Shown here in pieces: positions 6,273 to 56,094 of a DNA stretch of 64,000 bases. How positions within the stretch are numbered: position 1 is the first letter of the stretch; each line of letters starts with the position of its first letter. The DNA is taken from positions 87,180 through 151,179 of the forward strand of contig NZ_JAMQJY010000005.1 in the NCBI RefSeq assembly GCF_023703085.1, read 5' to 3'. The translations under genes were made by a program, and so were the position numbers. The notes under the pieces were generated by a model that worked only from the letters and a program-made list of their open reading frames with translations, did no database searches and was not told the DNA's origin. The DNA comes from Alkalicoccobacillus plakortidis. Its GTDB lineage: Bacteria > Bacillota > Bacilli > Bacillales > Bacillaceae_D.

Positions 6273-6642
6273 TTACTTAACTTCAACAGAAGCTCCTGCT
6301 TCTTCAAGCTTAGCTTTAACTTCGTTAGCTTCGTCTTGAGAAACGCCTTCTTTGATTGAAGCTGGAGCACCATCAACAAGTGCTTTCGCTTCTTTAAGAC
6401 CAAGACCAGTTACTTCACGAACTGCTTTGATTACGTTGATTTTAGAACCACCAGCAGATTCAAGAATTACGTCAAATTCAGTTTGCTCAGCAGCAGCTTC
6501 GCCAAGCGCCAGCACCTGCAGCAGCTACAGGAGCAGCAGCAGTAACACCGAATTCTTCTTCAATAGCTTTTACTAGATCGTTAAGTTCAAGAACTGTCAT
6601 TTCTTTGATTGCACCAATGATTTCTTCATGCGTTTTAGTCAT
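6273..6642 (-). CDS. rplL: Ribosomal protein L7/L12, frameshifted in this sequence
   Basis: The stalk protein of the 50S subunit, which recruits translation GTPases. The frame opens at the ATG at 6642 ([20 protein letters not shown] at 6651-6655) and runs through the N-terminal dimerisation domain into the Ala/Gly hinge. There GCTGG reads GCTTGG (6502-6507, CCAAGC on the plus strand). Removing the extra base joins it to [16 protein letters not shown] and the complete C-terminal domain ([13 protein letters not shown]), giving 122 residues, the normal length. As the gene is essential, the frameshift is most likely a sequence error. It is cotranscribed after rplJ. Confidence 0.95.
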
Positions 6643-6710
6643 TTGTAAATCCTCCTTGTTTTATAGGTGATTTTTCACCTTTGTTTGTTATTAGTTAGCA
6701 GGCAACTCTA

Positions 6711-7211
6711 TTAAGCGCCTTGCTCTTCCTTTTGTTCTGCAACTGCTTTAGTAACAAGTGCAAAGTTACGAACTGGTGCTTGAAGCACACTAAGAAGCAT
6801 AGAAAGAAGTCCATCACGAGATGGAAGCTCAGCCAACGCCTTGATTTGCTCAAGAGAAGCAACCTGACCTTCAATTACACCAGCTTTGATTTCTAACGCT
6901 TCATGTTTCTTAGCGAATTCGTTAAGAATCTTAGCAGGAGCAATAACGTCTTCTTTACTGAATGCGATCGCAGTAGGACCTACAAGCTGCTCATCAAGAG
7001 CAGTAAGTTCAGTCTCAGCCGTAGCACGACGAGTCATTGAGTTCTTGTATACTTTGAATTCAACACCAGCATCACGCAACTGTTTACGAAGTTCCGTTAC
7101 TTCAGAAACGGAAAGTCCACGATAATCAACAACAACTGTTGACTGGCTTTCACGAAGCTTAGTAGCGATATCAGAAACAACCTGTTTCTTAGCATCAATT
7201 ACTTTACTCAT
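6711..7211 (-). CDS. rplJ: Ribosomal protein L10
   Basis: 166 residues starting [16 protein letters not shown]. The ATG at 7211 is preceded by GGAGGTG at 7217-7223, which rules out the longer in-frame start. The protein forms the base of the ribosomal stalk, with the N-terminal rRNA-binding domain ([16 protein letters not shown]) and a C-terminal helix for L7/L12 dimers. It is preceded by the L10 leader RNA and followed by rplL; in this family the L10-L12 complex represses its own operon through that leader. Confidence 0.97.
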
Positions 7212-7254
7212 ACATACACCTCCTGTTAGTCTTTTACGTTTATACCGCACATAA

Positions 7255-7368
7255 GCATATAAAAAGCCCTCATGCAGACATGAGGGCGTATGGATTCTAA
7301 TGAAAAGAATCTATCGCTTACCTCGGCAGGATATTAAGCTAATAAGCCCCTGCTGTCTACGGTATAAT
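7255..7368 (-). ncRNA. L10 leader (autoregulatory mRNA leader) with terminator hairpin
   Basis: Between the rplJ promoter and the rplJ start the minus strand reads GACAGCAGGGGC, then CCTGCCGAGGTAAGCG, then a hairpin GCCCTCATG-TCTG-CATGAGGGC followed by TTTTTAT. The paired CAGCAGG and CCTGCCGAGGTAA elements match the conserved core of the Firmicutes L10 leader, where L10(L12)4 binding shifts folding towards termination. The role is from family knowledge; the elements are visible here. Confidence 0.85.
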
Positions 7369-7402
7369 CATTTTGTTTGTGCATTCATTGCGCACTTCAA
7401 GA

Positions 7403-7432
7403 AGTATACAGAATGAACACTCATGTTGTCAA
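7403..7432 (-). promoter_or_regulatory. Sigma-A promoter for rplJ-rplL
   Basis: TTGACA at 7427-7432 and TATACT at 7403-7408, 18 nt apart, immediately after the rplA stop and just upstream of the L10 leader. Confidence 0.85.
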
Positions 7433-7435
7433 CGT

Positions 7436-8131
7436 TTATTTAGAAAGAGATGAAACGTTCACGCGAATTCCAGGACCCATTGTAGATGCAATTGCTACGT
7501 TACGCATATACGTACCTTTAGCAGCACTAGGCTTAGCTTTTAGCAATGTATCAATGATTGTCTTGAAGTTCTCAACAAGTTTGTCATCCTCAAATGACAC
7601 CTTACCGATTGGCACGTGTACGTTACCGGATTTTTCAACACGGTACTCTACTTTACCAGCTTTGATTTCGTTAACAGCTTTTGTTACATCAAATGTAACA
7701 GTACCTGTTTTAGGGTTTGGCATTAGGCCTTTTGGTCCAAGTACACGACCAAGCTTACCAACTTGAGCCATCATGTCTGGAGTAGCTACGATTACATCAA
7801 AATCAAACCAACCTTGGTTGATTTTGTTGATGAAATCCTCTTCTCCAACATAGTCAGCACCAGCAGCTTCAGCTTCTTTAGCTTTATCACCTTTAGCAAA
7901 AACTAGAACGCGTTGTGTTTTACCTGTACCATTTGGAAGCACAACTGCTCCACGGATTTGTTGATCCGCTTTTTTCGGGTCTACACCCAAACGAACAGCA
8001 ACTTCAACAGACTCGTCAAATTTAGCTGTTGCTGTTTTCTTAACAAGTTCAATCGCTTCTGCTGGAGAATACGTAGTATCCTTATCAACCAGCTTTAGAG
8101 CTTCTTGATACTTTTTACCTTTTTTAGCCAT
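7436..8131 (-). CDS. rplA: Ribosomal protein L1
   Basis: 231 residues starting [16 protein letters not shown] at the ATG at 8131, with GAGGAGG about 10 nt upstream. Conserved L1 segments are visible, including [34 protein letters not shown] and the C-terminal IRVNVSSL. L1 forms the mobile L1 stalk near the ribosomal E site and in many bacteria represses its own mRNA. It follows rplK after a structured 118-nt gap. The frame is intact. Confidence 0.97.
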
Positions 8132-8177
8132 GATTCTTTTCCTCCTCAATTGTGGTTTTAACGGATAGTCCTCCCAC

Positions 8178-8235
8178 TACAGAAGGTTGCGCCCTGTCTA
8201 ACAGGTAAGAGGAATAACCCTCAATCGCAACCTCC
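8178..8235 (-). promoter_or_regulatory. Structured RNA element between rplK and rplA
   Basis: The rplK-rplA gap contains GGAGGTTGCG and CGCAACCTTC about 30 nt apart, forming a long-range stem closing a loop that itself holds small inverted repeats (ACCTGTTAGACAGG). It could be an L1 target or a processing site, but I cannot match it to a named family. Confidence 0.4.
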
Positions 8236-8249
8236 AGTAAACGGAACAA

Positions 8250-8675
8250 TTAATCTTCGATCGTAATTCCCATGCTACGAGCTGTTCCTTCAACCATACG
8301 CATAGCGGATTCAACATTCGCTGCGTTGAGATCTGGCATCTTAGTTTCAGCAATCTCGCGCACTTTATCACGCTTAACAGTTGCAACTTTATTTCGGTTC
8401 GGCTCTCCAGAACCAGACTCGATTCCAGCTGCTTTTTTAAGCAATACCGCTGCAGGCGGAGTTTTTGTGATGAACGTAAAAGAACGATCCTCAAAAACTG
8501 TAATCTCAACAGGAATGATAAGACCTGCTTGATCAGAAGTACGAGCGTTAAATTCTTTACAGAAACCCATAATATTCACACCTGCTTGACCCAATGCAGG
8601 ACCAACCGGTGGAGCTTGGATTCGCTTTCCAGCAGGGATTTGCAATTTAACCATTTTAATTACCTTTTTAGCCAC
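8250..8675 (-). CDS. rplK: Ribosomal protein L11, with two mutually compensating indels
   Basis: 141 residues from a GTG at 8675 (AAGGAGGT upstream), the normal length. The body matches Bacillus L11 almost residue for residue ([39 protein letters not shown]). Residues 17-21 read KRIQA where the family has KANPA. This comes from a missing A in GGAAA(A)GCG and an extra A in CCAGC (8614-8619), which cancel out. The altered segment is the conserved proline-rich loop near the GTPase centre and thiopeptide site. I judge it an error rather than real variation. L11 binds 23S rRNA helices 43/44. It heads the rplK-rplA pair. Confidence 0.96.
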
Positions 8676-8733
8676 GTGACACACCTCCTTAAGTCCGTGA
8701 TGTGGTTATCCGGATGATTTTCATCCTCCCACT

Positions 8734-8760
8734 CAAAAAACGGATGCATTCATGCACCCG
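8734..8760 (-). terminator. Terminator or attenuator in the rplK leader
   Basis: CGGGTGCA-TGAA-TGCATCCG followed by six T on the minus strand. It ends nusG transcripts, but it also lies downstream of the rplK promoter (8796-8824), so transcripts from that promoter must pass it to reach rplK. Confidence 0.75.
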
Positions 8761-8795
8761 ATGGCTCATGTTATCAAACCATATCAAACATGAAA

Positions 8796-8824
8796 ATTCT
8801 ATCACCTTCGCAGATAGATATCAA
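8796..8824 (-). promoter_or_regulatory. Sigma-A promoter for rplK-rplA
   Basis: TTGATA at 8819-8824 and TAGAAT at 8796-8801, exactly 17 nt apart, directly after the nusG stop. Confidence 0.8.
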
Positions 8825-8832
8825 GTCATTTT

Positions 8833-9366
8833 TTAAATCTTTTCTACTTGGTTATAATCAAGCTCAACCGGAGTCTCGCGTCCAAACATGTTCACATGAA
8901 CCTTAATCTTTTGTTTTTCCACTTGAATTTCTTCAATTGTTCCAACAAAATTCGCAAAGGGACCTTCTTTCACTTTCACAGATTCTTTGATATCAAAATC
9001 AATTTCTGCTCGTGGTTGTTCAACGCCCATCTGCTTAAGGATACTTTCAACCTCATCAGGAAGAAGAGCCGTTGGTTTAGAACCAACGCCAGAAGAACCG
9101 ACAAATCCAGTTACTCCAGGTGTATTACGAACAACATACCAAGAGTCATCTGTCATAATGATTTCTACCAACACGTAACCAGGAAATACTTTGCGGGTTA
9201 CGGTTTTTGTCTTACCATTTTTTACTTCTGTTTCTTCTTCAACAGGAACAAGCACTCGAAAGATCTTATCTGCCATATCCATAGATTCCACACGCTTTTC
9301 AAGATTTGCTTTAACCTTGTTTTCATAACCTGAATACGTATGAACTACATACCAATTTTTCTCCAT
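8833..9366 (-). CDS. nusG: Transcription elongation/termination factor NusG
   Basis: 177 residues starting MEKNWYVVHTYSGYENKVK. The N-terminal NGN domain (about residues 1-110, including FPGYVLVEI and TPGVTGFVG) binds the RNA polymerase clamp. The C-terminal KOW domain (about 125-175, VKVKEGPFANFVGTIEEI) contacts ribosome and Rho partners in the family. It is in the usual secE-nusG-rplK order. The frame is intact. Confidence 0.97.
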   Translation of the reverse strand: MEKNWYVVHTYSGYENKVKANLEKRVESMDMADKIFRVLVPVEEETEVKNGKTKTVTRKVFPGYVLVEIIMTDDSWYVVRNTPGVTGFVGSSGVGSKPTALLPDEVESILKQMGVEQPRAEIDFDIKESVKVKEGPFANFVGTIEEIQVEKQKIKVHVNMFGRETPVELDYNQVEKI

Positions 9367-9441
9367 TGTGGCTAGGACCAGCTAGTCCTATTCGCCTCCT
9401 TTCTAGTACTCATTTCATGCTCTAATAATACGACCGCACTC

Positions 9442-9621
9442 CTAGAGTAGGCGAACTAATTCCGAAATTCCCAAATCTACCACTGCAAAAAAGACAGTCA
9501 TAATCGCAACGGTTGCAAGAACCACTAGTGTGTAACGTGTGAGTTCTTTGCGCGTTGGCCAACTGACTCTTCTCATCTCTTGAGCAACACTTTGAAAGAA
9601 ATTACCTAATTTACCGGCCAA
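9442..9621 (-). CDS. secE: Preprotein translocase subunit SecE
   Basis: A 59-residue protein from a TTG start at 9621 with GGAGGTG at 9627-9633. The sequence begins MAGKLGNFFQSVAQEMRRV and continues SWPTRKELTRYT, the amphipathic segment typical of SecE, then one transmembrane helix (VVLATVAIMTVFFAVVDL, residues about 33-50). SecE clamps SecY in the protein-export channel. It lies between sigH and nusG as in other Bacillus, but without the usual rpmG (L33) gene upstream. Confidence 0.93.
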   Translation of the reverse strand: MAGKLGNFFQSVAQEMRRVSWPTRKELTRYTLVVLATVAIMTVFFAVVDLGISELVRLL

Positions 9622-9700
9622 GGGAACACCTCCAGCACCATATAATTATGGTCATGATCAAGTCTATCTAAACAGCCGCATTCCGAAGACAAGATTCCTC

Positions 9701-9740
9701 AAAATAAAAAAAGAACCGCTGCATTCATTCAAATGCGGTT
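9701..9740 (-). terminator. Intrinsic terminator between sigH and secE
   Basis: AACCGC and GCGGTT arms around an inner ATT/AAT pairing, followed by CTTTTTTTATTTTG on the minus strand. It lies about 80 nt before secE and downstream of the promoter at 9838-9866. Confidence 0.75.
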
Positions 9741-9837
9741 TAGTACAAAGACGCTATAAAAGTCGTTTCCTTATTCACAGAGATTAGTAACAGTCTATAT
9801 CAATAAAGAGAACAATTATAATTACACATGCTCTTTG

Positions 9838-9866
9838 ATACTAGCATGTCAAGAAATTTGTGTCAA
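9838..9866 (-). promoter_or_regulatory. Sigma-A promoter downstream of sigH
   Basis: TTGACA at 9861-9866 and TAGTAT at 9838-9843 with a 17-nt spacer. It would start a transcript that meets the terminator at 9701-9740 about 100 nt later; read-through would reach secE and nusG. No ribosomal protein gene is encoded in the interval. Confidence 0.8.
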
Positions 9867-9889
9867 TCTTTGGTTAATGATTTTCAAAG

Positions 9890-9924
9890 CAAAAACGGCA
9901 CATTGCTCCAAGCCTTGTACCGTT
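9890..9924 (-). terminator. Intrinsic terminator after sigH
   Basis: AACGGTACA and TGTGCCGTT arms (nine pairs, one G-U) followed by TTTGCTTT on the minus strand, 8 nt beyond the corrected sigH stop. Its position supports that corrected stop. Confidence 0.75.
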
Positions 9925-9931
9925 ATTGATT

Positions 9932-10598
9932 CTATAGCGTAACACCTTTTAATTCCACGTAACGCTCCAAGCTTACGTTTCACCCGTTGCAGCGCATTAT
10001 CGATTGATTTCACATGACGATTAAGATCAGACGAAATCTCTTGATAGGTTCTGCCATCTAGATAAAGCAGAAGGACTTGCTGTTCTAATTCACTGAGGAT
10101 TTCCCCCATTTTTAATTCAATATTTTCAAACTCTTCTTGATTGATGAGAAGCTCTTCTGGATCCGTCACTCGATTTCCACAAATGACATCAAGTAATGTG
10201 CGATCTGACTCCTCGTCATAAAGAGGTTTGTCTAGAGACACATAGGAGTTGAGGGGGATATGCTTTTGCCTGGTAGCCGTCTTAATAGCAGTAATAATCT
10301 GCCGTGTGATACACAACTCCGCGAACGCCTTAAAGGAGGATAGCTTGTCCCCATTAAAGTCTCGTACAGCCTTATACAGACCTATCATTCCCTCTTGAAC
10401 AATATCTTCATGATCAGCGCCAATCAAAAAATACGATCGTGACTTAGCACGAACAAAATTCTTATATTTGTTAATTAGATATTCAAGTGCCTGAGTATTT
10501 CCGAGTCTTACTTGTTCCACGAGAAAGCTATCATCAGCCTGTTCAAATCCGTTACCAGGCTTTGTAAAAGTTGGTTCAAGCTGAAGCTCTGCAGTCAC
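9932..10598 (-). CDS. sigH: RNA polymerase sigma-H factor, frameshifted near its C-terminus here
   Basis: Sigma factor of the transition state and sporulation onset. GTG start at 10598 with GAGGGGG upstream. Region 2 (YFLIGADHEDIVQEGMIGLY) and region 4.2 (TYQEISSDLNRHVKSIDNA) closely match B. subtilis SigH. As written the frame runs on to 9849 with a foreign tail. Changing GCTTGG to GCTGG at 9967-9972 restores KLERYVELKGVTL and a stop at 9932, giving 221 residues, the family length, just before a terminator. The extension is therefore an artefact of the GCTGG problem. Own promoter at 10644-10673. Confidence 0.94.
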
Positions 10599-10643
10599 AA
10601 TAATACCCCCTCGGCCAAGGCCACTAACTTAATGTTTAAACGT

Positions 10644-10673
10644 ATTATATAGCACAGTTTTCCAGGAGGTCAA
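10644..10673 (-). promoter_or_regulatory. Sigma-A-type promoter for sigH
   Basis: TTGACC at 10668-10673 and TATAAT at 10644-10649, 18 nt apart. It overlaps the end of rae1 by position of the -35 and lies 46 nt before the sigH GTG. Confidence 0.75.
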
Positions 10674-10677
10674 CCTC

Positions 10678-11190
10678 TCATCTCTCACCACGTCGCCATT
10701 TTTCAAAAATTTCAGTTAGCTCCTCACTAAGATAAGCATGTGTCGGTTTTTGTTGTTTCTTGGCAGTTTCGACCATTTTTGCAATTCCTTTTGTTGCCAT
10801 TTCTGTCTCTATCAAAAGTTCTCTGGCTGACTTTCTCAACGCACCGCTTCCGAAAATAACAGACTGCTCCGCAAAATCGGAAGTAGCTACGTGAATGGTT
10901 GTATCCACACGCTTTAATTCCCGCACTAATCGCTCAATACGTTCATCGGCTGTCTCTAATTTCCGTGTGTAAATGACTTCAACTCGATGATTTTTATAAG
11001 ACTTGCCTATACCTGAGACCATGTGTGCATCAAAAATAACGGTCACTTCGTCTCCTGAATATGCTTGGTACTCCGCCATCTTGCTAATTAAGAGATCTCT
11101 TGCCAGTTCCAGGTCTTGGTCCTTTAAATCTCGTAGCTTTGGCCATGCACCAATAATATTATAACCATCAACCAGCAGAATGGTTCTCAT
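10678..11190 (-). CDS. rae1: NYN-domain endoribonuclease Rae1 (YacP)
   Basis: 170 residues starting MRTILLVDGYNIIGAWPKL. The DGYN motif and the later VIFDAH and THIHVATSDFAEQ-type acidic positions mark the PIN/NYN nuclease fold. In B. subtilis this enzyme cleaves mRNA in the ribosomal A site. It starts 2 nt after the rlmB stop and is clearly part of the cysS-mrnC-rlmB-rae1 transcription unit. The frame is intact. Confidence 0.9.
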   Translation of the reverse strand: MRTILLVDGYNIIGAWPKLRDLKDQDLELARDLLISKMAEYQAYSGDEVTVIFDAHMVSGIGKSYKNHRVEVIYTRKLETADERIERLVRELKRVDTTIHVATSDFAEQSVIFGSGALRKSARELLIETEMATKGIAKMVETAKKQQKPTHAYLSEELTEIFEKWRRGER

Positions 11191-11192
11191 TG

Positions 11193-11942
11193 TTATCGAC
11201 TTCCTAAAGGAGTACGTTTGCGGTGCACCTCATACATAAGTAAACTTGCAGCAACAGATGCATTTAGTGAGGTAACCTTACCGACCATAGGAATATAGAC
11301 AAGAAAATCACACTTCTCTTTAACAAGACGGCTCATTCCTTTTCCTTCACTGCCTATAACAAGCCCTAGTGACATATCAAAGGATGCGCCACGATAATCT
11401 TCACTTGCAGAGGCATCTGTGCCTGCAAACCACACCCCGCGCTTCTTCAACTCGTCCATCGTACGTGCGATATTTGTAACCCTAACAACCGGTACGTATT
11501 CAATTGCCCCTGTAGACGCCTTAGCAACGGTCTGGGTCAGACCAACTGCACGTCGCTTCGGAATAATCACTCCGTGTGCACCTGATGCATCCGCAGTACG
11601 CAGGATCGAACCAAGGTTATGTGGATCTTCAATCTCATCTAGTACCAAGAAAAACGGTTCCTCATTTTTTGCTGCTGCACGCTCAAAGATATCATCAATC
11701 TCTGCATACTCATACGCTGCAACTGACGCCACAACGCCTTGATGATTCTCACTACCAAGTAACGACTCCAGCTTCTTTTTAGGTGCAGTCTGGACAAGTA
11801 TATTCTTTTCCTTCGCCACTTGAATAACCTTACTCATTGACCCTTTTTGTGAGCCCTCCGCAATCCAAATTTTATGAATCGCATGACCAGATCGGAGCGC
11901 TTCTAAAATGGGATTCTTCCCTGCAATAAACTCATCACTCAT
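11193..11942 (-). CDS. rlmB: 23S rRNA 2'-O-methyltransferase RlmB (SpoU family)
   Basis: 249 residues starting [16 protein letters not shown] at the ATG at 11942, with GGAGGGG upstream and an 8-nt overlap with mrnC. The N-terminal substrate-binding domain comes first. The SPOUT catalytic domain then shows motif 1 (EDPHNLGSILRTADASG), motif 2 (IGSEGKGMSRLV) and motif 3 (IPMVGKVTSLNASVAAS). The family methylates G2251 (E. coli numbering) in the peptidyl-transferase P loop. Confidence 0.93.
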   Translation of the reverse strand: MSDEFIAGKNPILEALRSGHAIHKIWIAEGSQKGSMSKVIQVAKEKNILVQTAPKKKLESLLGSENHQGVVASVAAYEYAEIDDIFERAAAKNEEPFFLVLDEIEDPHNLGSILRTADASGAHGVIIPKRRAVGLTQTVAKASTGAIEYVPVVRVTNIARTMDELKKRGVWFAGTDASASEDYRGASFDMSLGLVIGSEGKGMSRLVKEKCDFLVYIPMVGKVTSLNASVAASLLMYEVHRKRTPLGSR

Positions 11943-13781: not shown

Positions 13782-13829
13782 ACAATCTTCTCCCTTGGTT
13801 TTGTTGTTCTCTTAGCATAATCAGCTTAC

Positions 13830-16812: not shown

Positions 16813-17505
16813 GTTCCATTCTCCTTTTTCGTAAAATTGCCTCTGCCATTAGTAGATCCTCCGGTGTTGTGATTTTCACATTGCTATAATCACCCTCCAC
16901 CATAACGACCCGCGTATCCATCCATTCCATGATGCTTGCATCGTCTGTTGCTACAAACGCCTTCTCTTCCGCTTCTTTATGAGCGTCTAATAAGGAATCG
17001 CGCCAAAAAGCTTGCGGAGTTTGAACAGACCACAATTCAGTACGATCAATTGTTTCGGCAATTTGATGATCCACCACTCGTTTAACGGTGTCTTTCATCC
17101 TCACACCAACAATGGCCGCACCTTCTTCATTTGTGGTTTTGATAAGTTCATGGATAATCGATTTCCTAATAAACGGCCTGGCTCCATCATGTACTAACAC
17201 AATCTCATCAGGTCCTTCTAATTGCTTTAAGCCTTCATATACACTTTGCTTGGCGTTCTTCACCACCAACAGCAATCTTTTTGACCTTTTGGATGTTATA
17301 GTCACTGACAATCTCTTGCATGGCCTCTATTTCAGATTCATTCGCAACAAGAACAATTTGCTTGCATTGCTCGTCCTCTTCAAACACTTGTAATGTGTAC
17401 GCAATGAGTGGTATTTGATTTAATTCAATAAATTGCTTGTTCATTCCAACTTTCATTCGTTTACCCTGCCCAAGCAGCTGGGATCACAATACTGTACATC
17501 ATCAT
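16787..17505 (-). CDS. ispD: 2-C-methyl-D-erythritol 4-phosphate cytidylyltransferase, two frameshifts here
   Basis: Transfers CMP to methylerythritol phosphate, two steps before IspF. The start lies among three consecutive ATGs at 17497-17505, after GGAGAGGG. Two GCTGG sites read GCTTGG: at 17470-17475, inside the nucleotide-binding PAAGQGKRM, and at 17248-17253, between GGEERQ and SVYEGLKQL. Correcting both gives about 238 residues with [15 protein letters not shown] and WSVQTPQAF, all standard for IspD. It follows yacL and overlaps ispF. Confidence 0.92.
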
Positions 17506-18863: not shown

Positions 18864-19936
18864 TTACAGATGACGATCAATAAAAAGTTGCTCCTGAATT
18901 CGGTTTAAGCCGTTCTTAATCATCTTCGCTCTTGCCTCTCCAATACCATCTACTTCATCCAATTTATCTGTATCTGCTAGCACGATATTGGACAAAAATT
19001 CATACTCGTTAATTAGATTTTCAATGATTTGTGATGGCAGCCTAGGAATACGATGCAGAATTCTGTATCCTCGTGGCGAAACCACAAACTCAGTGAGATT
19101 CACATTTTTTGGGTAGCCAAGTGCCTTTATAATGGCAGGTTCGTCTAATAAATCTTCCGTTTGTAGGTCGGTAAGATCCTTCAGAGTCTTTGATACATCT
19201 TGCTTACTGTCTTTCACATAATCCTTTAACAAAAAGGCAGCTTCCTTCTCTGTGTCTGAGACAAGCTCTTTTAATTGCATCGTAATCAAACGACCTTCGT
19301 CTCCAAGTTCATTGATGTAGTTCAGAATCTCTCGTTGATTCTGAGCACCATTTGTACTCTGTGTACAACTTGAGTAACTTCAGAAAGAGTGACGAGTTCC
19401 TCGAATTCCAGTGCCCCAAGGTTTGTAATGGATTGCTCCAAAACAGATTTGTACTTTTCAAGCGTTTGAATAGCTTGATTCGCTTTTGTTAAGATGACGC
19501 CGATATCCTTTAAGGAATAACGAAATTCTCCCTGATAAAGGGTAATAACATTTCGACGTTGTGAAATGGAGATGGTTAGCTGATTCGTCTGCTTTGCCAC
19601 ACGTTCAGCTGTGCGATGACGAATGCCTGTTTCATTTGAGCTAATGCCATTATTTGGAACTAGCTGAGTGTTGGCATAAAGGATCTTTTTGCCGTCATCA
19701 CTTAAAATAATAGCTCCATCCATTTTAGCTAGCTCATATAAATATGCCGGAGAAAATGGACAATTGATATGGAATCCTCCGTCTACAATTTGTTTCATAT
19801 CATCCGGATATCCTAGAACAATTAATCCACCTGTATTCGCGCGAAGTACATTATCAATCCCAGCCCGTAAAGGTGTTCCAGGTGCCACTAACTTTAATAG
19901 ATTTTGTATAAATTCATTTCTGTTTTGTTCATCCAT
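18864..19936 (-). CDS. disA: DNA integrity scanning diadenylate cyclase, frameshifted in this sequence
   Basis: Makes cyclic di-AMP and pauses at branched DNA. The N-terminal diadenylate cyclase domain shows DGA at residues 73-75 and RHRTAER at 106-112; the C-terminal helix-hairpin-helix ([18 protein letters not shown]) binds DNA. The frame breaks near 19333, where [14 protein letters not shown] is expected and one base is missing (AACCGAG-like reads AACGAG). Restoring it gives 357 residues, the family length. This indel is not at a GCTGG site. It starts 5 nt after radA. Confidence 0.92.
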
Positions 19937-21414: not shown

Positions 21415-23872
21415 TTACTTCGACGCTGCTGTCTCTTCTTTTGTATCAACAGTTTCTACAAATAACTCGTTATCCTTCACACCAATAACGGCTTTTTGTC
21501 CTTTGGAAATTGTGCCCTTTAATAGTTCCTCAGACAAACGATCCTCGACTTGCTTCTGCAATGCACGACGTAGTGGTCTTGCACCATATTCCGGATCATA
21601 ACCAAGGTCCGTAATTTTATCTTTAGCTTCCTCAGTCAATTCAAAATCAATTCCCTGCTCTTTTAAGCGGATTTTCAATTGATCAGCCATCAACGTAATA
21701 ATTTCTCGAATATGCTTCTTCTCTAATGCGTGGAAGACAATGATTTCATCAATTCTATTAATGAACTCAGGTCTAAAGCTGTTTTTCAGCTCGCCCATCA
21801 CACGGTCTTTCATGTCCTTGTATTCACGACCTTCAGTCTCAGTCGTAAAGCCAAGATATTTATTGCCTTTTAGAGCACTTGCTCCAACATTAGACGTCAT
21901 GATAACCGCTGTATTACGGAAATCAACCGTACGCCCTTTAGAGTCAGTTAAACGACCATCCTCAAGTACCTGTAACAAAATATTAAACACATCTGGATGT
22001 GCTTTCTCAATCTCATCTAACAGAATAACAGAGTAAGGCTTACGACGAATTTTCTCCGTTAATTGACCGCCTTCCTCATGTCCAACATACCCTGGAGGTG
22101 AACCGACTAAACGGCTTGTAGAATGTTTTTCCATATATTCCGACATATCAATTCGAATAACTGAATCTTCGTCTCCAAATAACGTCTCAGCAACAGCACG
22201 GGCAAGCTCTGTTTTACCGACACCCGTTGGTCCTAGAAAGATAAATGAACCAATAGGACGCTTCGGATCCTTTAGACCTGCTCTTGCGCGACGAACTGCT
22301 TTAGATATGGAGAGCACAGCTTCCTCTTGACCAACCACACGTTGATGAAGAATCTCTTCCATTTTTAATAAACGTTCTGTCTCTTCTTGAGCTAGCTTCG
22401 CGACAGGAATACCAGTCCAGCTAGCCACCACTTGAGCAATGTCTTCTACCATCACTTCTGTGTTTTCTTGACCCTGCTTCTTTTTCCACTTGTTTTTCAT
22501 TTCATCAAGCTGCTCACGCAAACGTTGTTCTGTATCGCGTAGTGACGCCGCCTTTTCAAACTCTTGACTTTGAACAGACGCGTCTTTTTCTTTACGAGTT
22601 TCCTCAAGTCGCTGCTCAAGCTCCTTCAAATCAGGTGGTGCCGTGTATGAACGCAGACGCACTTTAGATGCTGCCTCATCAATCAAATCAATTGCTTTGT
22701 CTGGTAAGAAACGATCCGGAATATAACGATCAGATAATTTAACCGATTCTTCAATCGCTGTATCCGTAATCGTGACACGGTGATGCGCTTCATAGCGATC
22801 ACGAAGCCCTTTTAAGATTAGAATTGATTCCTCAAGTGTAGGTTCGTTCACTTGAATTGGCTTGGAAACGACGCTCAAGCGCTGCATCCTTCTCGATGTA
22901 TTTACGATACTCATCTATGGTTGTGGCCCCGATGCACTGTAGCTCTCCACGAGCAAGCGATGGTTTTAAGATGTTCGAAGCATCAATGGCACCTTCTGCT
23001 CCACCAGCACCAATTAGAGTGTGAAGTTCGTCAATAAATAGAATGACATTTCCTGCTTGGCGAATCTCATCCATCACCTTTTTCAAACGATCCTCAAACT
23101 CACCACGGTACTTAGTTCCTGCTACAACTGTTCCCATATCAAGTGTCATCACACGTTTGTTGCGTAATGTCTCTGGCACTTCATTGGCAACAATAGAGAG
23201 GGCTAATCCCTCTGCAATAGCCGTTTTACCAACACCAGGCTCACCAATCAGAACCGGATTGTTCTTTGTACGTCTGCTAAGAACCTGAATCACTCGTTCA
23301 ATCTCTTTGCTACGTCCAATCACAGGATCCAATGACTCTTCACGAGCAATGGCCGTTAAATCACGAGCTAAGCTATCAAGTGTAGGCGTATTTGCATTAG
23401 AAACCGCACCACTCTGCTGTGAGGAGCTTCCTCCTTCATTGCTTCCTAACAATTGAAGAACTTGCTGACGCGCCTTATTTAAGCTTACGCCCAAGTTATT
23501 TAACACTCTCGCTGCCACACCTTCACCCTCACGAATTAATCCAAGAAGAATGTGCTCTGTGCCAACATATGAATGACCTAGCTTACGTGCTTCATCCATA
23601 GAAAGCTCGATAACCTTTTTCGCACGTGGTGTGTAATGCTTTGTTTTGGAACCTTCCTGACCTTTTCCAATCAAGGTCTCTACTTCTTTTTGCAGCTTCT
23701 CTGGTCCAAGTCCAAGCGCTTGTAATGCTTTAGCTGCAATGCCTTCGCCCTCACGGATCAGACCAAGTAGAATATGCTCGGTTCCTATATTGTTATGGCC
23801 TAAACGAATTGCTTCCTCTTGTGCTAGTGCCAATACCTTTTGAGCTCTCTCTGTAAATCGACCAAACATCAT
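21415..23872 (-). CDS. clpC: AAA+ unfoldase ClpC, one frameshift in this sequence
   Basis: Hsp100 unfoldase that feeds ClpP and works with the MecA and McsB adaptors. It starts [15 protein letters not shown] at 23872 with GGAGGTGG upstream. It shows the two Clp N repeats, D1 with Walker A GEPGVGKT, the middle UVR-like coiled region ([11 protein letters not shown]), D2 with Walker A GPTGVGKT, and the ClpP-loop region. The frame breaks at 22860-22865, where GCTGG reads GCTTGG inside [12 protein letters not shown]. Corrected length is 818. Last gene of the CtsR operon. Confidence 0.95.
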
Positions 23873-27272: not shown

Positions 27273-30205
<2,933 letters not shown>

Positions 30206-32224: not shown

Positions 32225-32299
32225 TGGTGGAGCCTAGCGGGATCGAACCGCTGACCTCCTGCGTGCAAGGCAGGCGCTCTCCAGCTGAGCTAAGGCCCC
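32225..32299 (-). tRNA. tRNA-Ala (UGC)
   Basis: Cloverleaf with anticodon TGC and encoded CCA. The D-loop reads GCTCAGCTGGAGAGC, one G shorter than the usual Bacillus sequence (CAGCTGGGAGAGC), so the gene is 75 rather than 76 nt. Confidence 0.93.
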
Positions 32300-32976: not shown

Positions 32977-33052
32977 TGGTGGAGGATGACGGGCTCGAAC
33001 CGCCGACCCTCTGCTTGTAAGGCAGATGCTCTCCAAGCTGAGCTAATCCTCC
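32977..33052 (-). tRNA. tRNA-Val (UAC)
   Basis: Acceptor GGAGGAT pairs with ATCCTCC, anticodon TAC, CCA encoded, 76 nt. The D-loop reads CAGCTTGGAGAGC where Bacillus usually has CAGCTGGGAGAGC. It is the first tRNA after the proximal 5S; the order Val-Thr-Lys-Leu-Gly-Leu-Arg-Pro-Ala equals B. subtilis trnJ. Confidence 0.94.
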
Positions 33053-33294: not shown

Positions 33295-36226
<2,932 letters not shown>

Positions 36227-38404: not shown

Positions 38405-39902
<1,498 letters not shown>

Positions 39903-43334: not shown

Positions 43335-44787
43335 TCAGCTCATCTGTGTTACGTTTTTACACTCTTCTTCACTCAGCTCAAGCGCCCGCCAAAGAGCACG
43401 CGCCTTCTTAAACGATTCCTTATACTCATGGTGCGGATTTGAATCACTTACAATCCCGGCACCAAGCTTGCACATACGCATGCTCATCATAGCAGATCAT
43501 CGTTCGAATTGTAATGTTTAGCTCCATATCACCATGGAAACCAATCCAACCAATAGCACCTGTATAAATGCCTCTACGTACACGCTCTAGCTCTTCTATA
43601 ATTTCCATCGTGCGAATCTTTGGTGCACCAGTTATCGTTCCACCAGGAAAAACCGCCCGAATGACATCATAAACCGAGTGATCATCAGCAAGCTCTCCCA
43701 CTACATTTGAAACAAGATGCATCACATGAGAGTATCGCTCAATGACCATTAACTCATCTACCTCAACTGTGCCATAGCTTGAAACACGGCCGAGGTCATT
43801 GCGCTCAAGATCAACAAGCATCACATGCTCCGCTCGTTCTTTTTCGTTGACGAAGAGAGAATCAGCTAGTCTTTGATCTTCTTCTACCGTTGCACCACGT
43901 GAGCGTGTCCCAGCAATTGGTCTTGTACTTAGGCGATCACCTTGTTTTTTGACCAATAATTCAGGCGAAGCACTAACAAGCTGAAAATCAGGAGTTTGCA
44001 TATACCCCATATATGGCGAAGGATTAAGCTCTCTCAATTTTTCATAGACATGCATCGGTTCTACGGTTAATGGCTTTGACTCACGTAATGACAAGTTAAC
44101 TTGAAAAACATCTCCTTGTGCAATGTATGATTTAATCTTATTAACCGCATCAACAAATTCTTCTTCCGTCAAACTTGCGGTATTTGAACCGTCAGAAGTG
44201 TGTTCCTTTTGTTTCCATGTCGTTTGGGTCGGTGAACCTTGTCGCCAAATTGACTCAAACATCTCTAGTCGCAAAAGTAGTGCTTCTTCCTCTTCTGCAA
44301 ATCCATTTACACAAAGATGGATCATTTCTGTGTGATGATCATAAACAAAAACGTTCTCAAATAACATGAGATACACATCTGGCAAAGGAAGGTCATCCTT
44401 AGACTGAGATGGGATTCGTTCGATTTCCCTTACTACATCATAGCTAAAGTAACCAATTGCACCTCCACTAAAGGGAATATCAGCAACAGCTTGGGTTGGC
44501 TCTACTACAAAAGGCTCCATGGCTGACTCAATTCCTTTTAGCAATGGACCTTCCCAAACCTGTTTCTCCTCACCCATAGAAAGAGTTAACGTTTGATCGT
44601 GTCCTTCTAGCGTCGCAAATGGATCAAGACCCATAATGCTAAAGCGACCTCCACGCCCACTCTCTAGTAAAACATGCTGCTTTGAATGTGTAGCAAGTGC
44701 TTGGTAACGATTAAACCACTCATTCGCTTGAAGAGGAAATGATTTTGACCTTGTTATTCTTGATGTCCGTTTATTATGAATAAACAT
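43335..44787 (-). CDS. pabB: Aminodeoxychorismate synthase component I, frameshifted near its C-terminus
   Basis: Chorismate-using subunit. ATG at 44787 (GGGGGTG upstream). Family segments are GGAIGYFSYD, SASPELL, RPIAGTRSRG, ERAEHVMLVDLERNDLGRV and FPGGTITGAPK. As written it stops at 43444. Changing GCTTGG to GCTGG at 43462-43467 restores QAGAGIVSDSNP, the glycine-rich end of the active site, and the frame runs to 43335, giving 483 residues. The corrected stop is 12 nt before pabA. Confidence 0.94.
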
Positions 44788-44892: not shown

Positions 44893-45820
44893 TTATTCTT
44901 CTTCAAATTGATACAAAGCCGTACTTAGATATCTCTCACCGTTTGACGGAATAATCGCTACGACCTTTTTACCTGGTCCGAGCTTTTCTGCTACTTCAAG
45001 TGCCGCATATATAGCTGCACCGGAGGAGATTCCACCAAGAATACCTTCTTCTCTTGCTGCCTTACGTGCAAATTCAAAGGATTGCTCAGTTGTTACTTGA
45101 ATAACCTCATCGTAAACATCTTGATTTAAAATCTTTGGCACAAATCCTGGTCCAATCCCCTGGATCTTGTGAGGTCCTGGGCTACCACCAGAAAGGACCG
45201 GAGAATCCTTTGGCTCAACAGCAACAACCTTTAGATCAGGAAAATGTTCTTTTAAGAATCCACCAGCACCAGTAATCGTTCCACCCGTACCAATACCAGA
45301 AACAAAGGCATCCAGTTGACCATCTACCTGCTCTAGTAATTCTTTACCTGTTGTATTTCTATGGATAGCAGGATTCGCTTCATTTTCAAATTGCTGAGGC
45401 ATAAAGTATCCATGCTCATTTGCAAGTTCTGTTGCTTTACGGATCGCTCCACCCATACCTTCAGGACCCGGAGTTAGAACAACCTCAGCACCGTACGCAC
45501 GCAAAAGGTTACGACGCTCTAAACTCATCGTTTCAGGCATAACTAATATCGCTTTAAAGCCTTTAGCAGCAGCAACCATCGCTAGACCAATACCAGTGTT
45601 ACCACTAGTAGGTTCAACAAATGAGTCACCCGGTTTAATTTTCCCGGCTTCTTCAGCGGCTTCTAACATCGCTAAGCCAATTCGATCTTTTACACTACTA
45701 CCTGGATTGTAGTATTCCAGCTTTTAAATAGATATCAGCATGCTTATCACTTGTTAACCTATTTAATTTCACTAATGGCGTATTTCCAATTAAATCGAGT
45801 ACAGAATTTACAGCAGTCAT
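44893..45820 (-). CDS. cysK: Cysteine synthase A (O-acetylserine sulfhydrylase), frameshifted here
   Basis: Starts [19 protein letters not shown] at 45820 (GGAGG upstream). The frame breaks at 45717-45725, where AAAGCTGG reads AAAAGCTGG within [14 protein letters not shown]. Beyond it come the PLP lysine in [20 protein letters not shown] and [12 protein letters not shown]. Corrected length is 308. It makes cysteine from O-acetylserine and sulfide, and in the family its complex with CymR represses sulfur genes. Product of CysE (13.8 kb) is its substrate. Confidence 0.95.
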
Positions 45821-47722: not shown

Positions 47723-49714
47723 TTAACGTCGATCGTTATCTTGGCCCCCGCCTTCAGCTGGTGGTTCATTTTCACCTTGCTCAAGGTTTGTTGTTTCTTC
47801 ATACGGAGTACCTTCAGGACGCTCTTCTTGCTTGCCATTAATATTTACTTTCACATCAGAATCTTTTGGTTTATTCCCATGATGATTCTCTGGAAGCTTT
47901 CCTTCATTTACTAATGAAAGGATTTGTTCAGCATCCAATGTTTCAAGTTCAATTAATGATTCAGCCACGCGGTCTAGAGATTCTTTATTTTCAGTCAGGA
48001 TTTTCTTACAAATTTCATAAGCATCCTTAATGATTTTTTGAACTTCTAAATCAATCTCGTGTGCAATTGCATCACTGTAATTTTGCTCATTCTGAATATC
48101 ACGGCCAAGGAATACCTGACCTCCAGAGCTTTGTCCAAACTGCATTGGTCCTAACTTTTCGCTCATTCCATATTCAGTGACCATCTTACGAGCGATACCC
48201 GTTGCGCGTTGGAAATCATTATGAGCTCCGGTACTTACTTCACCGAACTGAATTTCCTCAGCTACACGGCCACCAAGCAATCCAACGATTTTATCGATAA
48301 GCTCAGGCTTTGTCATAAAGTAACGATCTTCTTTTGGAAGCATCATTGCATACCCACCGGCCATACCTCGTGGAACAATGGTTACCTTATGAACGATATC
48401 AGCACCCTCTAGCTTCACACCAACTACAGTGTGACCCGCTTCATGCCAAGCAACAATGTTTTTCTCTTTTGGAGAAATAATACGGCTTTTCTTAGCAGGA
48501 CCAGCAATAACTCGGTCAATGGCTTCTTCGACGTGAGTCATGCCTATTTTAGTCTCGTTATTCCTAGCTGCCACTAATGCAGCTTCATTTAGAAGGTTTT
48601 CTAGATCGGCACCTGAGAATCCAGGTGTTCTTGTTGCTATTACATCAAGCTTCACGTCATCCGATAAAGGTTTGTTCTCTGCATGAACTTGAAGAACATG
48701 TTCACGTCCCTTAACGTCAGGGCGATTCACTTGAATTTGACGGTCAAAACGTCCTGGACGAAGTAATGCTGGGTCAAGAACATCTGCACGGTTTGTTGCA
48801 GCAATAATGATGATTCCTTCATTAGAGCTAAACCCGTCCATCTCAACAAGCAATTGGTTTAACGTCTGCTCACGCTCATCGTGACCACCGCCAACTCCAA
48901 GCTCCACGCTGACGTCCAACTGCGTCGATTTCATCAATAAAAATAATACACGGTGCATTTTTCTTAGCATTCTCAAATAAATCTCGAACACGTGAAGCAC
49001 CGACCCCAACAAACATCTCCACAAAGTCAGAACCACTAATGGAGAAGAATGGTACGCCTGCTTCACCAGAAACAGCACGTGCTAGAAGGGTTTTACCTGT
49101 ACCTGGAGGTCCAACAAGGAGAACCCCTTTAGGAATACGGGCACCAATAGCCGAGAACTTGCGCGGATCCTTAAGGAATTCCACAACTTCAACAAGCTCA
49201 GCTTTTTCTTCATCTGCACCAAGCCACGTCCTTGAACTTAGCCTTTTTCTTGTCGTCGCTAACCAGTTTCGCTTTGCTCTTACCAAAGCTCATCATACGG
49301 TTTCCGCCACCCTGAGCTTGGCTCATAAGGAAGATAAACAAGATGATGATAATCACAAAGGGAATAAGGGAAGTAAAGATTGCCACCCAAGCTATTTGTT
49401 TCATCAGCTGGCTCAATCTCTAATTGACTTTGCGCTTGTGCTAGAAGCTCAGATGTTTGTTCGCTACGAAGTACATATGTTTCGAAAAACTCATCATCTT
49501 TAGCACCAACAAGCTGTCCACGAACAAGATAAACATCTCGTTCCGGTTTTATACTAAATGTTTCCACGTTGCCTTGATCTAGATTTTCGGTGAAATCATT
49601 GTAATTAAGTTCATCCACTGTACTTTGATCTGTATTAATAACACTAACAATACCAATTATCACCAAAAAGATAAGCAGATAAAAGATTGTATTTCTAAAT
49701 ACCCGGTATTTCAT
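47723..49714 (-). CDS. ftsH: Membrane AAA+ zinc protease FtsH, three frameshifts here
   Basis: Starts [17 protein letters not shown] at 49714. Two transmembrane helices (about residues 9-28 and 108-131) flank an extracellular loop. The AAA+ module has Walker A GPPGTGKT and Walker [13 protein letters not shown]; the protease has the zinc motif HEAGH. Three GCTGG sites read GCTTGG: 49387-49392, 49219-49224 and 48897-48902. Correcting each restores NSWVAIFTS, KDVAGADEEK and [12 protein letters not shown] in turn, giving 662 residues. Three identical errors in one gene strongly support a sequencing artefact. Confidence 0.95.
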
Positions 49715-49763
49715 TCTAGACCTCCTCCCACGTCCAACAAAGCTGCAATAATAGTATCATACT

Positions 49764-49776: not shown

Positions 49777-49783
49777 ACAAATA

Positions 49784-50323: not shown

Positions 50324-50375
50324 CAAAGGCTTAAGACCCTCCTGTTTAATTCGGTTACTAAATGTGAGAAGACGT

Positions 50376-51782: not shown

Positions 51783-51866
51783 ATTTCAGTTGTTATCTAT
51801 TATAGCGTGTTTTAGCGAAAACATGTCCTTTTCACAAAAAAGAAAAGGACCTAATCGTACTGGCCC

Positions 51867-52821
51867 CTACATTGTAAGAATGAATACGTATAAAAGACAA
51901 CCGATAAAAAGTAAGGTCCCACTTAAAACCAGTTCAACTTTGTAGGCAAAACGTCGTTTGTGTTTAGTTGATCGCTTACGCGCACTAGAGCCTACATCAC
52001 CATAAGTGATATCTTGTTGCATGCTTTGTGTCAATTCTTTTTTCATTGAAGAGGCACTCGAGTAATGACCCGTTATTGCTCGAACAAGGACTGTTTCATA
52101 AGGCTTTAACAGAGGATGGCCGTTAATAGCCGTTCTTAGTTGCTGTTTAGGATGCCCGTTTTTCTTATCAAACCGTTTAGGGTATGCACAATTCATCATA
52201 ATCATCGCCACTGAAAATAGATCATAAGAAGGTTCTGCCTTTCTTGAACCTAACGTCCAGTAGCCTCTATCATAAAACTCAGTGTACTCCTTTATGGATC
52301 TTCCGAGTAGTGTTGTCCCTCCTACATCAAGCAAGCGCACCCTTGAAGGCGGCCCTGTTACTAACAGATTATCTGGCTTTAGATCACCAAATGCCCAAGC
52401 CCTCTTTATGAAGGTTTTCTAGGTCACCAAGTAGCTGCAAAATTAGTAATCCTAGCCATTCGGGTCCCTTGCCTCTCATAAAAGGTATAAGTGCTTCTCC
52501 CTTCACATACTCCATCGCATAAAAGGGGTAAGTATGAGTTCCAAAAACGAGATCGTCCACATCAAGCAGTTTTGGCCCAAGTGCCACGCCTTGTTTTTTT
52601 GAGAACTGCCTTAAGACATTCACCTCAGTTGTAATCGCCATACTGTCTATTCCCACTTTGACAGCAACTAAACCATTGATTGATTGGACAAGATAAACTG
52701 CACCTGTCGCTCCTTCCCCAAGCAAACGAATAACGGTATATGATTTTTTGTGCCATTTCCCTTTTAATCTGGCACCTGAAGCAAGTTTAATCGGCGATTT
52801 CGTCGAATAACTGTTCCTCAT
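51867..52821 (-). CDS. yabT: Sporulation-linked Ser/Thr protein kinase YabT, one frameshift here
   Basis: Starts MRNSYSTKSPIKLASG at 52821 and overlaps the yabS 3' end. A Hanks-type kinase fold is visible: glycine loop GEGATGAVYL, lysine in VAVKVG, catalytic loop GDLKPDN and DVGG in place of DFG. The frame breaks at 52395-52400, where GCTGG reads GCTTGG just before GDLKPDN. Corrected length is 317. One C-terminal transmembrane helix (LVLSGTLLFIGCLLYVFIL) would anchor it. In B. subtilis the DNA-activated kinase phosphorylates RecA during sporulation. Confidence 0.9.
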
Positions 52822-53522
52822 GATTCAGCAAGCTCCTTTTCGAACCTTTTTGAGTAAAGATACGAACAGCTGCTTGAATAGCAGGACCAGTAGGCGTTGT
52901 TCCTCCAGGTGAGAGTTTTTGAAAAATACTTGTTAGGCTACTTAATTTTGGTGTCCATTCTAACAAGCGATCCACATCACGTCGTTTCCCGGGAAACGAA
53001 TAGAGTGCAAAACGATTTTCTCCTACTCTAGACGTTAAACTAATGGACAAGTCTGTTAATGCTTCCTGTACCATTGGTAGCTTATCCCTCATGCTTGCAC
53101 TTGTATCTACTAAAATTAATACCTCAAGCGAAATGGTTTCACCTAGATCATCAACAACCTCCATAACCTGCCCTCTTTTTTCAGGTGGTAGATCCTCTAA
53201 CTCTTGGTTCTTACCTAAAATATCCTGCAGCTCTTTATTTACCACACCATGTAGGGTTTGTGTCATTGCTTTTCTTGTAACCATTTGTACGGTTTTAGCC
53301 AACTGCTTCGCATAGACGATTTGACTGACACCGCCTCCAAGCAAGCGCAATAGCCTCAACCTCCTGAATGCCTTGTTCATTTAATGAGTCTCCGTCTACT
53401 ATTCCAATGACATTAAGGGTGATGCCTTGTTCCTTTCCGAGTGCCGCAATGGCAATTGGATCCTCTCCCTGATTTGAATGACCATCTGTGATCAAGAGTA
53501 TTTGTTTAAGTGTGCCTTTCAT
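52787..53522 (-). CDS. yabS: VWA-domain protein YabS, one frameshift here
   Basis: Starts MKGTLKQILLITDGHSN at 53522 (GGAGGG upstream). The frame breaks at 53337-53342, where GCTGG reads GCTTGG inside AIALAGGGVSQIV; corrected length is 244. A von Willebrand A-type metal site DTSAS occurs in the second half (VLILVDTSASMRDKL). Function is not established in detail; the gene is sporulation-associated and pairs with yabT in Bacillus. Confidence 0.85.
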
Positions 53523-53597
53523 CGACAATCCCTCCAAATTTGTGAATGGTAACATCCTTCACTTCTTGGAGAGAATCTATACTTCATGCCATACTCT

Positions 53598-56094
53598 TTA
53601 CGCACGTTTTTTTAGCGGTGGAGCTGGACGATAGAGCGGAATGGACGCCCACTTTGGTGTATTTCGCTTAATTTCGGCAACAATCACGGTCATATCGTCC
53701 TCAATCTGAATGCCTCGATCTGAACGGATCACTCGTTCTAGTATGATATCTGCCATCTCCTGTGGCTCGGCTACTTCTAATTCTGCAATCATTCGTTTCA
53801 TCCACAAATCCTTATTCTCTACATGCGTCGGCGAATCAAATATCCCATCACTCACCATGATTAAAATATCGCCAGCTTTTAATTGCTCACTTACAACATC
53901 TACATCAAAGTCCTGAAACATACCCATCGGTAGGTTGCTCGAGTCAATCTTTAAAACCTTATCCCCACGCTTAATGAAAGTCGGGATGGAACCTATTTTT
54001 AAGAACTTAGCTTTTGCTGTTTGCAGATCAATCATCGCTAAATCAAGCGTCGAGAAAATCTCATCTGTCGTGCGTAAAGAAAGCACCGAATTCACTGATT
54101 TAATGGCTACCATTTCCTCAATTCCAGATTCAAGAACCTTTTGCAGCAGCTGTAAGGTTTCTGTACTTTCTAGATGAGCCCGCTCTCCGTTCCCCATTCC
54201 ATCACTAATGGCAATCGCATATTGCCCGGAACCGAGTTCAAGAGTCGAATAACTGTCACCCGATATCCACGCTCCTCCTTTTGCCACATTTGCCACACCC
54301 GTTTCAACAACAAATTGCTTAGCAGATGCAAATGTCATATGACTGTGACCATTCGAGTAGAACTCGGTTTCTTCTTTTTGAAGCACTACCGTTTCATTTA
54401 GAAGGGAGGACAACATCGGTGCAATAATCTTCTCACCTATACCCTGTCCTTGATCAAACGGCACACTTAACTCAATTTCAGCTTGTCCCGGCTTCAGACT
54501 ATAAATATCCACATGACCGACCTCGAGACCTGCTCCTCTCAACATTTCCAACAACTCTTCTTCTTGCTGAAAGTGAGCTTCCTTCTCTTTTTGGATTTCT
54601 CTTGCAAAGTCGCCCATGACTTGGGATACACCTAACAATTGATCAGCAACTAACTTCCGGCTTTCTGATACCTGCTTCCTAAGCATTTGATTAACCTGAT
54701 AGTGGCTATGCTCCATTACAATGGCCTGAACAACCTTTTCTGGCCGGATACAATGTTTGTTCCACTCCATCTGAAGGATCTGATCTTTTATCTCACCATT
54801 TTTAGCCGTTTCCGTCATAATTTTATTCATACAATCATACGTTTTATTAAAGTTCTGCACCCAGCACCGCTCTTTTTTAAAGCAGGTCTGGCATGTTTTT
54901 TCCGTTACATTGCTCAGAAAATAATCAACCTCTTTTTCATCACGCTCTAGGTCTTCACGTGGAGCAGGCATTTGAAAGCTATTGGACAATGTCTGAAACA
55001 GTGTCGAGAATTGCTCTACTCTACCTGCAGTCACGTCACGGATCTTCCGTAGATACTGTTGTTGTTCCGTAGCATATTCAACCGTACCCGGTATGTAGCG
55101 AGCGATATTTTGAATAACACGATTAGGCGTTAAGAAAAATAGTAAAATGGCTGCCAAAGTCTCTAGTAAGGTAGCGGATATTCCAGGTCCACCTTCTCCA
55201 TACATACCTATTAGTAGCGTACCAACAAGTAGCCCAACAGCCACACCTACTTTTTTCCCCTCTTTAAGAAGTCCTCCTAATAAGCCTGAGAATGCTAATA
55301 GGCTCATTTGATACAAACTTGCGAGGCTAGCGAGACTTAAGATGAGGCCAGTTACCACTCCAACGGTTGAACCGATCGCTGCACCACCAACCAATCCAAA
55401 AATAAGCAATAGATATCTGGCGAGCACATGCTCCACTGTTACATCATTCCAAGCCCAAGCCCACCGTACCTGTCATAACCGAAGCCAACAAAATAATTAA
55501 GCAAATAATTTCTTCATTCTTTAAAGGTCTTTGCATTCGTTTTGCTGTTAAGAGAGGTACACTTTGTATAAAAATCATTGTTAAAATAAAACTCAGCCCA
55601 GATTCTACCGCGGCCATCATTAATGCGTAGCCTGAGATCGTTCCGGTACCGACAAAAACTAGACTAAGCCTTGATAGTAAACTCGCAGAGAAAACGAGGT
55701 ATGGAAGGGCTTCTTTCTGATTGGGAACAAATTTAGAAACTGCTTTTTGTAAGAGGATATAGGCAATGATGGCGACAATGACAAACCCAACTTGTCCATG
55801 ATAACTAAAGATAGCACCACCAAGTAATGAGAATGATGCAATCGCAGCCTTATCCCGTTTTAATAGATAGACAGCTGCTAAAAAGGGTAAGACAAAAGGT
55901 GTTAGTTCAGTTAAAATAACGGCTCGTCCAAGTAAAAAACCCATAATCGCAATTAGTAGACCCCACTGATAAAATGCTGTATCAAACCAGGAAATCGATT
56001 GTTGCTTAACTGACTCTGTGGTTCTTTGATAGATTTGGCCTGCTCGTGCAATCCACGCAGGTTCACTCCATAACTTAACAGCCTTTCTTAACAT
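53598..56094 (-). CDS. spoIIE: Stage II sporulation protein E (PP2C phosphatase), one frameshift here
   Basis: ATG at 56094 with AGGGTGG upstream. The N-terminal third has about ten membrane helices; the middle domain interacts with FtsZ; the C-terminal PP2C-like phosphatase (ISDGMGNGERAHLES, ILIMVSDGIFDSP) dephosphorylates SpoIIAA to release sigma-F in the forespore. The frame breaks in the membrane part near 55449-55460, where GCTGG reads GCTTGG in VGLGWND. Corrected length is 831, close to the B. subtilis 827. Confidence 0.94.

Follow-up and report, generated by a model that had tools for sequence, protein, structure and literature searches.

The 64,000-nt stretch of Alkalicoccobacillus plakortidis analysed here (the window, G000:C5:87180-151179, at the end of contig C5 of a genome, G000, of 4.37 Mb in nine contigs) carries one-base insertions and losses in genes that must work, and these indels are found mainly at one pentamer, GCTGG/CCAGC, genome-wide and not only in the window. 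They are read here, with a probability of roughly 0.87, as a consensus artefact caused by modification of the pentamer and not as mutation. In the proposed mechanism the source DNA would be chemically modified at GCTGG/CCAGC, the nanopore signal over the word would be miscalled, and the consensus would keep the miscall at roughly one site in six, whether as a T doubled in GCTGG (an A, in CCAGC), as the loss of a G, as an adjoining A/T run longer by one base or, perhaps, as C-to-T changes at some sites. 5-Methylcytosine (5mC) is the most likely mark; its writer, at slightly less than even odds, would be a tandem pair of C5-methyltransferases encoded at rlmH, marking 5mC on both strands of the pentamer.

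The window was compared with four congeners (G001-G004; RpoB identity 98-99%), to which it aligns collinearly at 76-97% identity. For one protein encoded in the window, Alkalicoccobacillus murimartini supplies the nearest named relative, at 86%, other matches being at about 60% or lower, in keeping with the genus Alkalicoccobacillus. A first-pass annotation, made from the letters of the window, had listed sixteen one-base insertions at a single pentamer, and all sixteen are present, each within about 10 bases of where it had been placed and each differing by one base from the aligned congeners. Fourteen of them read CCAAGC or GCTTGG, one base longer than in the congeners, and at the other two (39677 and 45720) an A/T run adjoining GCTGG/CCAGC is longer by one base; both strands are affected, GCTTGG standing on the plus strand at 8614, 17248 and 22860. 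Left of 26 kb, where three to four congeners cover the six sites, every one of them agrees against this genome: the extra base is found in rplL (L7/L12; 6502..6507, plus strand, against 4/4 congeners), rplK (8614..8619, minus strand, 4/4), sigH near its C-terminal end (9967..9972, plus strand, 3/3), ispD at two places (17248..17253, minus strand, and, in the N-terminal region, 17470..17475, plus strand; 3/3 at each) and clpC, which it splits (22860..22865, minus strand, 3/3). The other ten sites were compared with G003 alone and lie in copy 1 of the 23S rRNA (27485..27490, plus strand), lysS (39672..39682, minus strand, lengthened A/T run), pabB near its end (43462..43467, plus strand), cysK (45715..45724, minus strand, lengthened A/T run), ftsH (48897..48902, 49219..49224 and 49387..49392, all plus strand), a putative yabT (52395..52400, plus strand), a VWA-domain gene, putatively yabS (53337..53342, plus strand), and spoIIE, where two CCAAGC overlap and the extra base is aligned at 55459 (55449..55460, plus strand). 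Pfam searches of the pieces of the broken open reading frames (ORFs) identify L7/L12, L11, a sigma-70 factor, IspD, a Clp-type ATPase, a chorismate-binding enzyme, a PALP enzyme, FtsH, a VWA protein, SpoIIE and a class II tRNA synthetase; the pieces assigned to yabT and the short upstream piece of lysS gave no Pfam match.

The insertions had been listed correctly, but base losses at 8629, 28329, 34350 and 32283 and a difference in tRNA-Val at 33033 had been missed. The loss in rplK is beside CCAGC (8625..8635, minus strand) and 13 nt from the insertion, with one base fewer than in 4/4 congeners, and the two changes combined leave the ORF open. Against G003, all three gaps in the 23S copies fall at GCTGG; the single insertion by which the copies had been said to differ is indeed confined to copy 1, and the same base is also lost in both copies (28324..28333 and 34345..34354, minus strand), which the first-pass annotation had not seen. 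In the D-loop of tRNA-Ala a base is lost at GCTGGG (32279..32288, minus strand; 75 nt, 76 nt in G003), and the D-loop of tRNA-Val has GCTTGG for GCTGGG of G003 at equal length (33033..33038, minus strand). The single 16S gap against G003 is not at GCTGG, and none of the seven 16S GCTGG sites has an indel, one being substituted in both copies. A possible offsetting GCTTGG insertion and nearby deletion (57246/57256) is seen at 57243-57258 against G003 alone.

For a wider view, congener ORFs of at least 90 amino acids were aligned, with frameshifts allowed, to C5 (151 kb) and C1:1-200000, about 8% of the genome, with the exclusion of genes aligned over less than 60% or less than 55% identical, of overlapping lower-scoring ORFs and of events up to 6 residues from an end. 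The scan returned 88 event clusters (65 insertions and 23 deletions), and 63 of the events, in 204 kb of coding sequence, are internal, that is at least 60 nt from the gene end (47 insertions and 16 deletions). A motif was counted when it was up to 16 nt from the event: CCAAGC/GCTTGG accompanies 40 of the 47 internal insertions, about 0.9 being expected, CCAGC/GCTGG accompanies 4 more, and CCAGC or TCAGC is found at 6 of the 16 internal deletions. The argument that random error would not choose one pentamer is borne out, and the preference extends to frameshifts outside the window. Scans of the congeners gave 2 events in 181 kb for G002, 3 in 184 kb for G003 and none in 58 kb for G001, and none of the three insertions among them is at CCAAGC or CCAGC. 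At the GCTGG sites common to G002 and G003, this genome has an insertion in 11 of 100, and at conserved sites of nine control pentamers an indel is found in 3/80 (GCAGG), 0/112, 0/68, 0/66, 1/167, 0/44, 1/108, 1/118 and 2/128; two of the three GCAGG indels are themselves GCTTGG. Chance is rejected by these control genomes and control pentamers.

Over the whole genome CCAAGC is present in 3178 copies, 728 per Mb against 507-544 per Mb in the four congeners (densities computed on rounded genome sizes), an excess of about 855, so that the count across the assembly that the first-pass annotation had proposed agrees with its view. Its statement that the effect is partial also holds, since the covered coding sequence has 227 CCAGC left unaltered and 46 insertion sites. 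Among ten flanking positions compared between broken and unaltered sites, only the base after CCAGC differs (G/C enriched, p = 0.0017); a longer recognition site was rejected, this single position giving no firm extension.

The same word is known from Listeria monocytogenes, of which twelve strains were sequenced on R9.4 by Chiou et al. 2023 (PMC10687267). In the available part of that report, the modified loci of the ST1081 strain R20-0026 are all centred on GCTGG (CCAGC), amplification reduces 5670 mismatches to 16, and the authors call the mechanism unclear; the likeness to this genome is in the identical pentamer and in consensus errors spread over the genome. The earlier proposal, in which a modified base biases the consensus and points to a methyltransferase with GCTGG in its target, is supported as the best reading because the congener comparison, the genome-wide effect, this published identical motif and the C5-methyltransferases without counterpart in three of the four congeners all converge on it; which enzyme has this specificity is something we infer.

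The search for methyltransferase genes elsewhere in the genome, also suggested at first pass, was made with five Pfam families (PF00145, PF01555, PF02086, PF02384 and PF07669). The C5-cytosine family PF00145 has four matches in this genome, one in G001 and none in G002-G004; PF01555 and PF02086 have no match in this genome, and the two PF07669 matches are below the cut-off. An adenine or N4-cytosine writer from PF01555, PF02086, PF02384 or PF07669 was rejected, no clear gene being present. One congener has adjacent PF01555 and PF00145 methyltransferase genes (G001:C23:465252-466991).

The tandem pair, of 388 and 414 amino acids (PF00145; L182:11500-12666 and 10245-11489, minus strand, contig C1, where L182 is G000:C1:2583001-2603000), belongs to an island next to rlmH, at its 3' end (L182 4875-14107), with 31% GC, against 43% on either side. 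The genes follow each other in the order rlmH, HNH_2 gene, pair, 1.35 kb with a broken remnant, 232-aa gene, AAA gene and DUF2357/PDDEXK_7 gene. No Pfam match was obtained for the 232-aa gene; the AAA gene has AAA matches below the Pfam cut-off and a PADLOC match to PDC-M26A at 5e-46, and the nuclease gene matches DUF2357 and PDDEXK_7 above the cut-off, while neither the AAA nor the PDDEXK_7 protein has a sequence match in the PDB. The remnant (L182:8893-10244) looks, from its sequence, like an insertion-sequence helper ATPase. An SCC-like terminal repeat at rlmH was sought and rejected, the best match being 13/18 and shuffles reaching 14.

Two further C5-methyltransferase genes are phage-associated. 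The first is a prophage orphan of 353 amino acids (G000:C1:16836-17897), an open PF00145 gene located between ParB-like and terminase small subunit genes; the second is a fragment among phage-like genes (L183:9514-10264), a 224-aa ORF matching positions 1-169 of the 324 of the PF00145 profile. The fragment appears broken, since this ORF alone matches PF00145 and is overlapped by another in a different frame.

The 414-aa enzyme was found, at E values up to 1e-60, in 12 of 397 genomes of the order, this one included; of the eleven other carriers, two at 39% identity were left out and the 388-aa enzyme is present in 9/9 of those searched, and absent from two congeners searched as controls. The two genes are adjacent in eight of the nine relatives, being fused into one ORF in L201, and on different contigs in the ninth (G219), whose assembly has 480 contigs. 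The neighbouring nuclease is of the PLD type in L197, L199, L201 and L203 (Pfam RE_NgoFVII in L199, the sole one scanned) and of the HNH type in L202, and L200 has the same set of 232-aa, AAA and PDDEXK_7 genes directly downstream of the pair; in L198 there is no more than a weak PLD-like ORF next to another methyltransferase, and L204 lacks the PLD, HNH and AAA/PDDEXK_7 genes altogether. L200 suggests that the order in this genome was once pair, 232-aa, AAA and PDDEXK_7 genes, and gene content suggests an exchange of the restriction half among relatives (L184, L197 and L199-L203: PLD, HNH, or AAA plus PDDEXK_7); related pairs with swapped nucleases may share the GCTGG/CCAGC site. The L198 pair is also near rlmH. 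CCAAGC densities of two pair carriers and a pair-free congener of each are 340 and 323 per Mb, and 530 and 486 per Mb, with no comparable excess; only two of the nine relatives have such a congener, and the comparison is uninformative on specificity if they were sequenced otherwise.

A strand-specific 5mC pair fits the data because GCTGG/CCAGC is asymmetric and has a cytosine on both strands, with LlaJI as the model; as in LlaJI, one enzyme of the pair would mark each strand of the asymmetric pentamer. The pair is also favoured because methylation must be maintained at all times where a restriction system is active. Under the same artefact, the writer could instead be the prophage orphan, acting on the GCTGG strand only, which is the main rival, and a serious if less likely one. 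Phage packaging modules are usually silent in a lysogen, which counts against this open gene, placed as it is in the packaging module of a phage. In favour of the orphan, Listeria grayi is the named source of a relative 59% identical to it, and no restriction-modification system is reported, in the accessible text of PMC10687267, for the Listeria strain that shows the GCTGG errors. M.BatI offers a precedent, being described in the available part of PMC8936443 as a characterised prophage orphan C5-methyltransferase that methylates the first C of GCDGC, a site markable on one strand only; four of the five letters are common to GCTGG, but the site is not GCTGG, the likeness is drawn from its description, and the same source gives no detectable 5mC from M.BatI in its own host. 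A single enzyme would moreover leave the CCAGC strand unmarked, and reads of that strand would be expected to be clean.

Other origins are much less probable than an artefact written by a C5-methyltransferase. A mark of N6-methyladenine (m6A) in CCAGC, from a type III Mod-like enzyme, is suggested by ModD1 (M.Nme579I) of Neisseria meningitidis, a type III methyltransferase that, in the part of PMC13248616 that was available, methylates CC(m6A)GC; the pentamer is the same as the error motif and the base inserted in CCAGC is an A. ModD1 differs in marking adenine on one strand (PMC13248616). This origin is very improbable here: the PF01555 search of this genome gave no match, with the limit that a gene could be missing from an assembly 96.9% complete, and the same search found one match in G001 and matches in 11 of 14 control genomes. 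PF01555 is presumably the family of the type III Mod enzymes. A base-calling bias driven by the sequence of GCTGG, with no DNA modification, would agree with the about five-sixths of sites that are unaltered, and it is improbable in view of the similar words CCTGG, ACTGG, GCTGC and GCTCG, which show 0 indels at 290 conserved sites, and of the near disappearance of the same-motif Listeria errors after amplification in the excerpt of PMC10687267. Real mutations, for instance by a mutator acting on the motif, or programmed frameshifts would account for the presence of the changes in the consensus, and are hardly credible: mutation is implausible because essential genes, tRNAs and rRNA are hit, the 23S copies differ at one site, cytosine deamination yields substitutions and not indels, and the two other pair carriers have CCAAGC densities near those of the pair-free congeners. 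Mutation and programmed frameshift were rejected on the rRNA and tRNA hits, the 23S difference and these densities.

Several observations weigh against the preferred reading of a nanopore artefact at 5mC written by the pair. The nanopore origin is deduced from the assembled consensus, and 10 of the 16 internal deletions have no flagged pentamer nearby. Homopolymer-run deletions are common among nanopore errors, and five of these ten have an A or T run of 6-7 within 16 nt, which would fit a nanopore-only assembly; the deletions at C5 50989 and 61559 would fit GCTGG read as GTTG, by C-to-T plus a lost G, and the remaining three, including the one at 19334 of the window, match neither pattern. 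The deletion at 19334 is of one base against three congeners and is neither at GCTGG nor in a long homopolymer. The C-to-T signal itself is weak (GTTGG at 7/100 GCTGG sites against 2/112 and 4/118 in two controls) and inconsistent between comparisons, and one control deletion in G003 has GCTGG nearby. PF02384 has one match here at 39 bits (cut-off 20.4), with a match of 34-40 bits in each congener. CCAGC being a known m6A target of ModD1, the motif alone does not indicate 5mC. In Listeria R20-0026 mismatches, and not indels, are the error source, whereas indels were measured here, and its authors, in the available text of PMC10687267, report no restriction-modification system, the writer there being probably no such pair.

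The false insertions are estimated at about 850, many of them gene-breaking, which lowers apparent completeness (96.9 here, 99 in the four congeners) and would lead annotation, the counting of pseudogenes and phylogeny astray. At the same time the pattern of errors serves as a readout of the modified motif, and it narrows the candidates to a short list of enzymes.

Among known systems, LlaJI, described in the accessible part of PMC1459862 as two tandem 5mC methyltransferases with the asymmetric site GACGC/GCGTC, resembles the island in its tandem 5mC pair in one orientation, in the downstream genes for a putative counterpart of the McrB-like NTPase R1 and for a PD-(D/E)XK nuclease, as R2 is, and in the presumed asymmetric pentamer; it differs in that the island also contains the 232-aa gene, has HNH upstream of the pair and is interrupted, before the restriction genes, by the broken remnant, and the two are likened by description and not by sequence. 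Lactococcus lactis plasmid p275D (NZ_CP016702.1) has an adjacent tandem 5mC pair in the same order, 66% and 57% identical, whose restriction gene, by contrast, is encoded on the other strand and specifies a nuclease with a PLD domain; a target site for this pair was not found in the parts of its literature that were available. CglI is, in the excerpt available, another enzyme with an asymmetric pentamer, GCCGC. The literature on GCTGG or CCAGC with methylation returned Listeria R20-0026 and ModD1, and a mention of GCTGG in PMC5487053 was set aside, as the passage available is a table of cleavage-site rankings and not of methylation. The rlmH pair would be, tentatively, part of a restriction-modification system that methylates cytosine in a pentamer known, in the literature searched, only from the Listeria modification and from the m6A of ModD1. 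Both the phenomenon and the motif have already been published; this genome appears to be a second case, differing in the type of error, and it adds to the Listeria precedent named candidate enzymes for the GCTGG mark.

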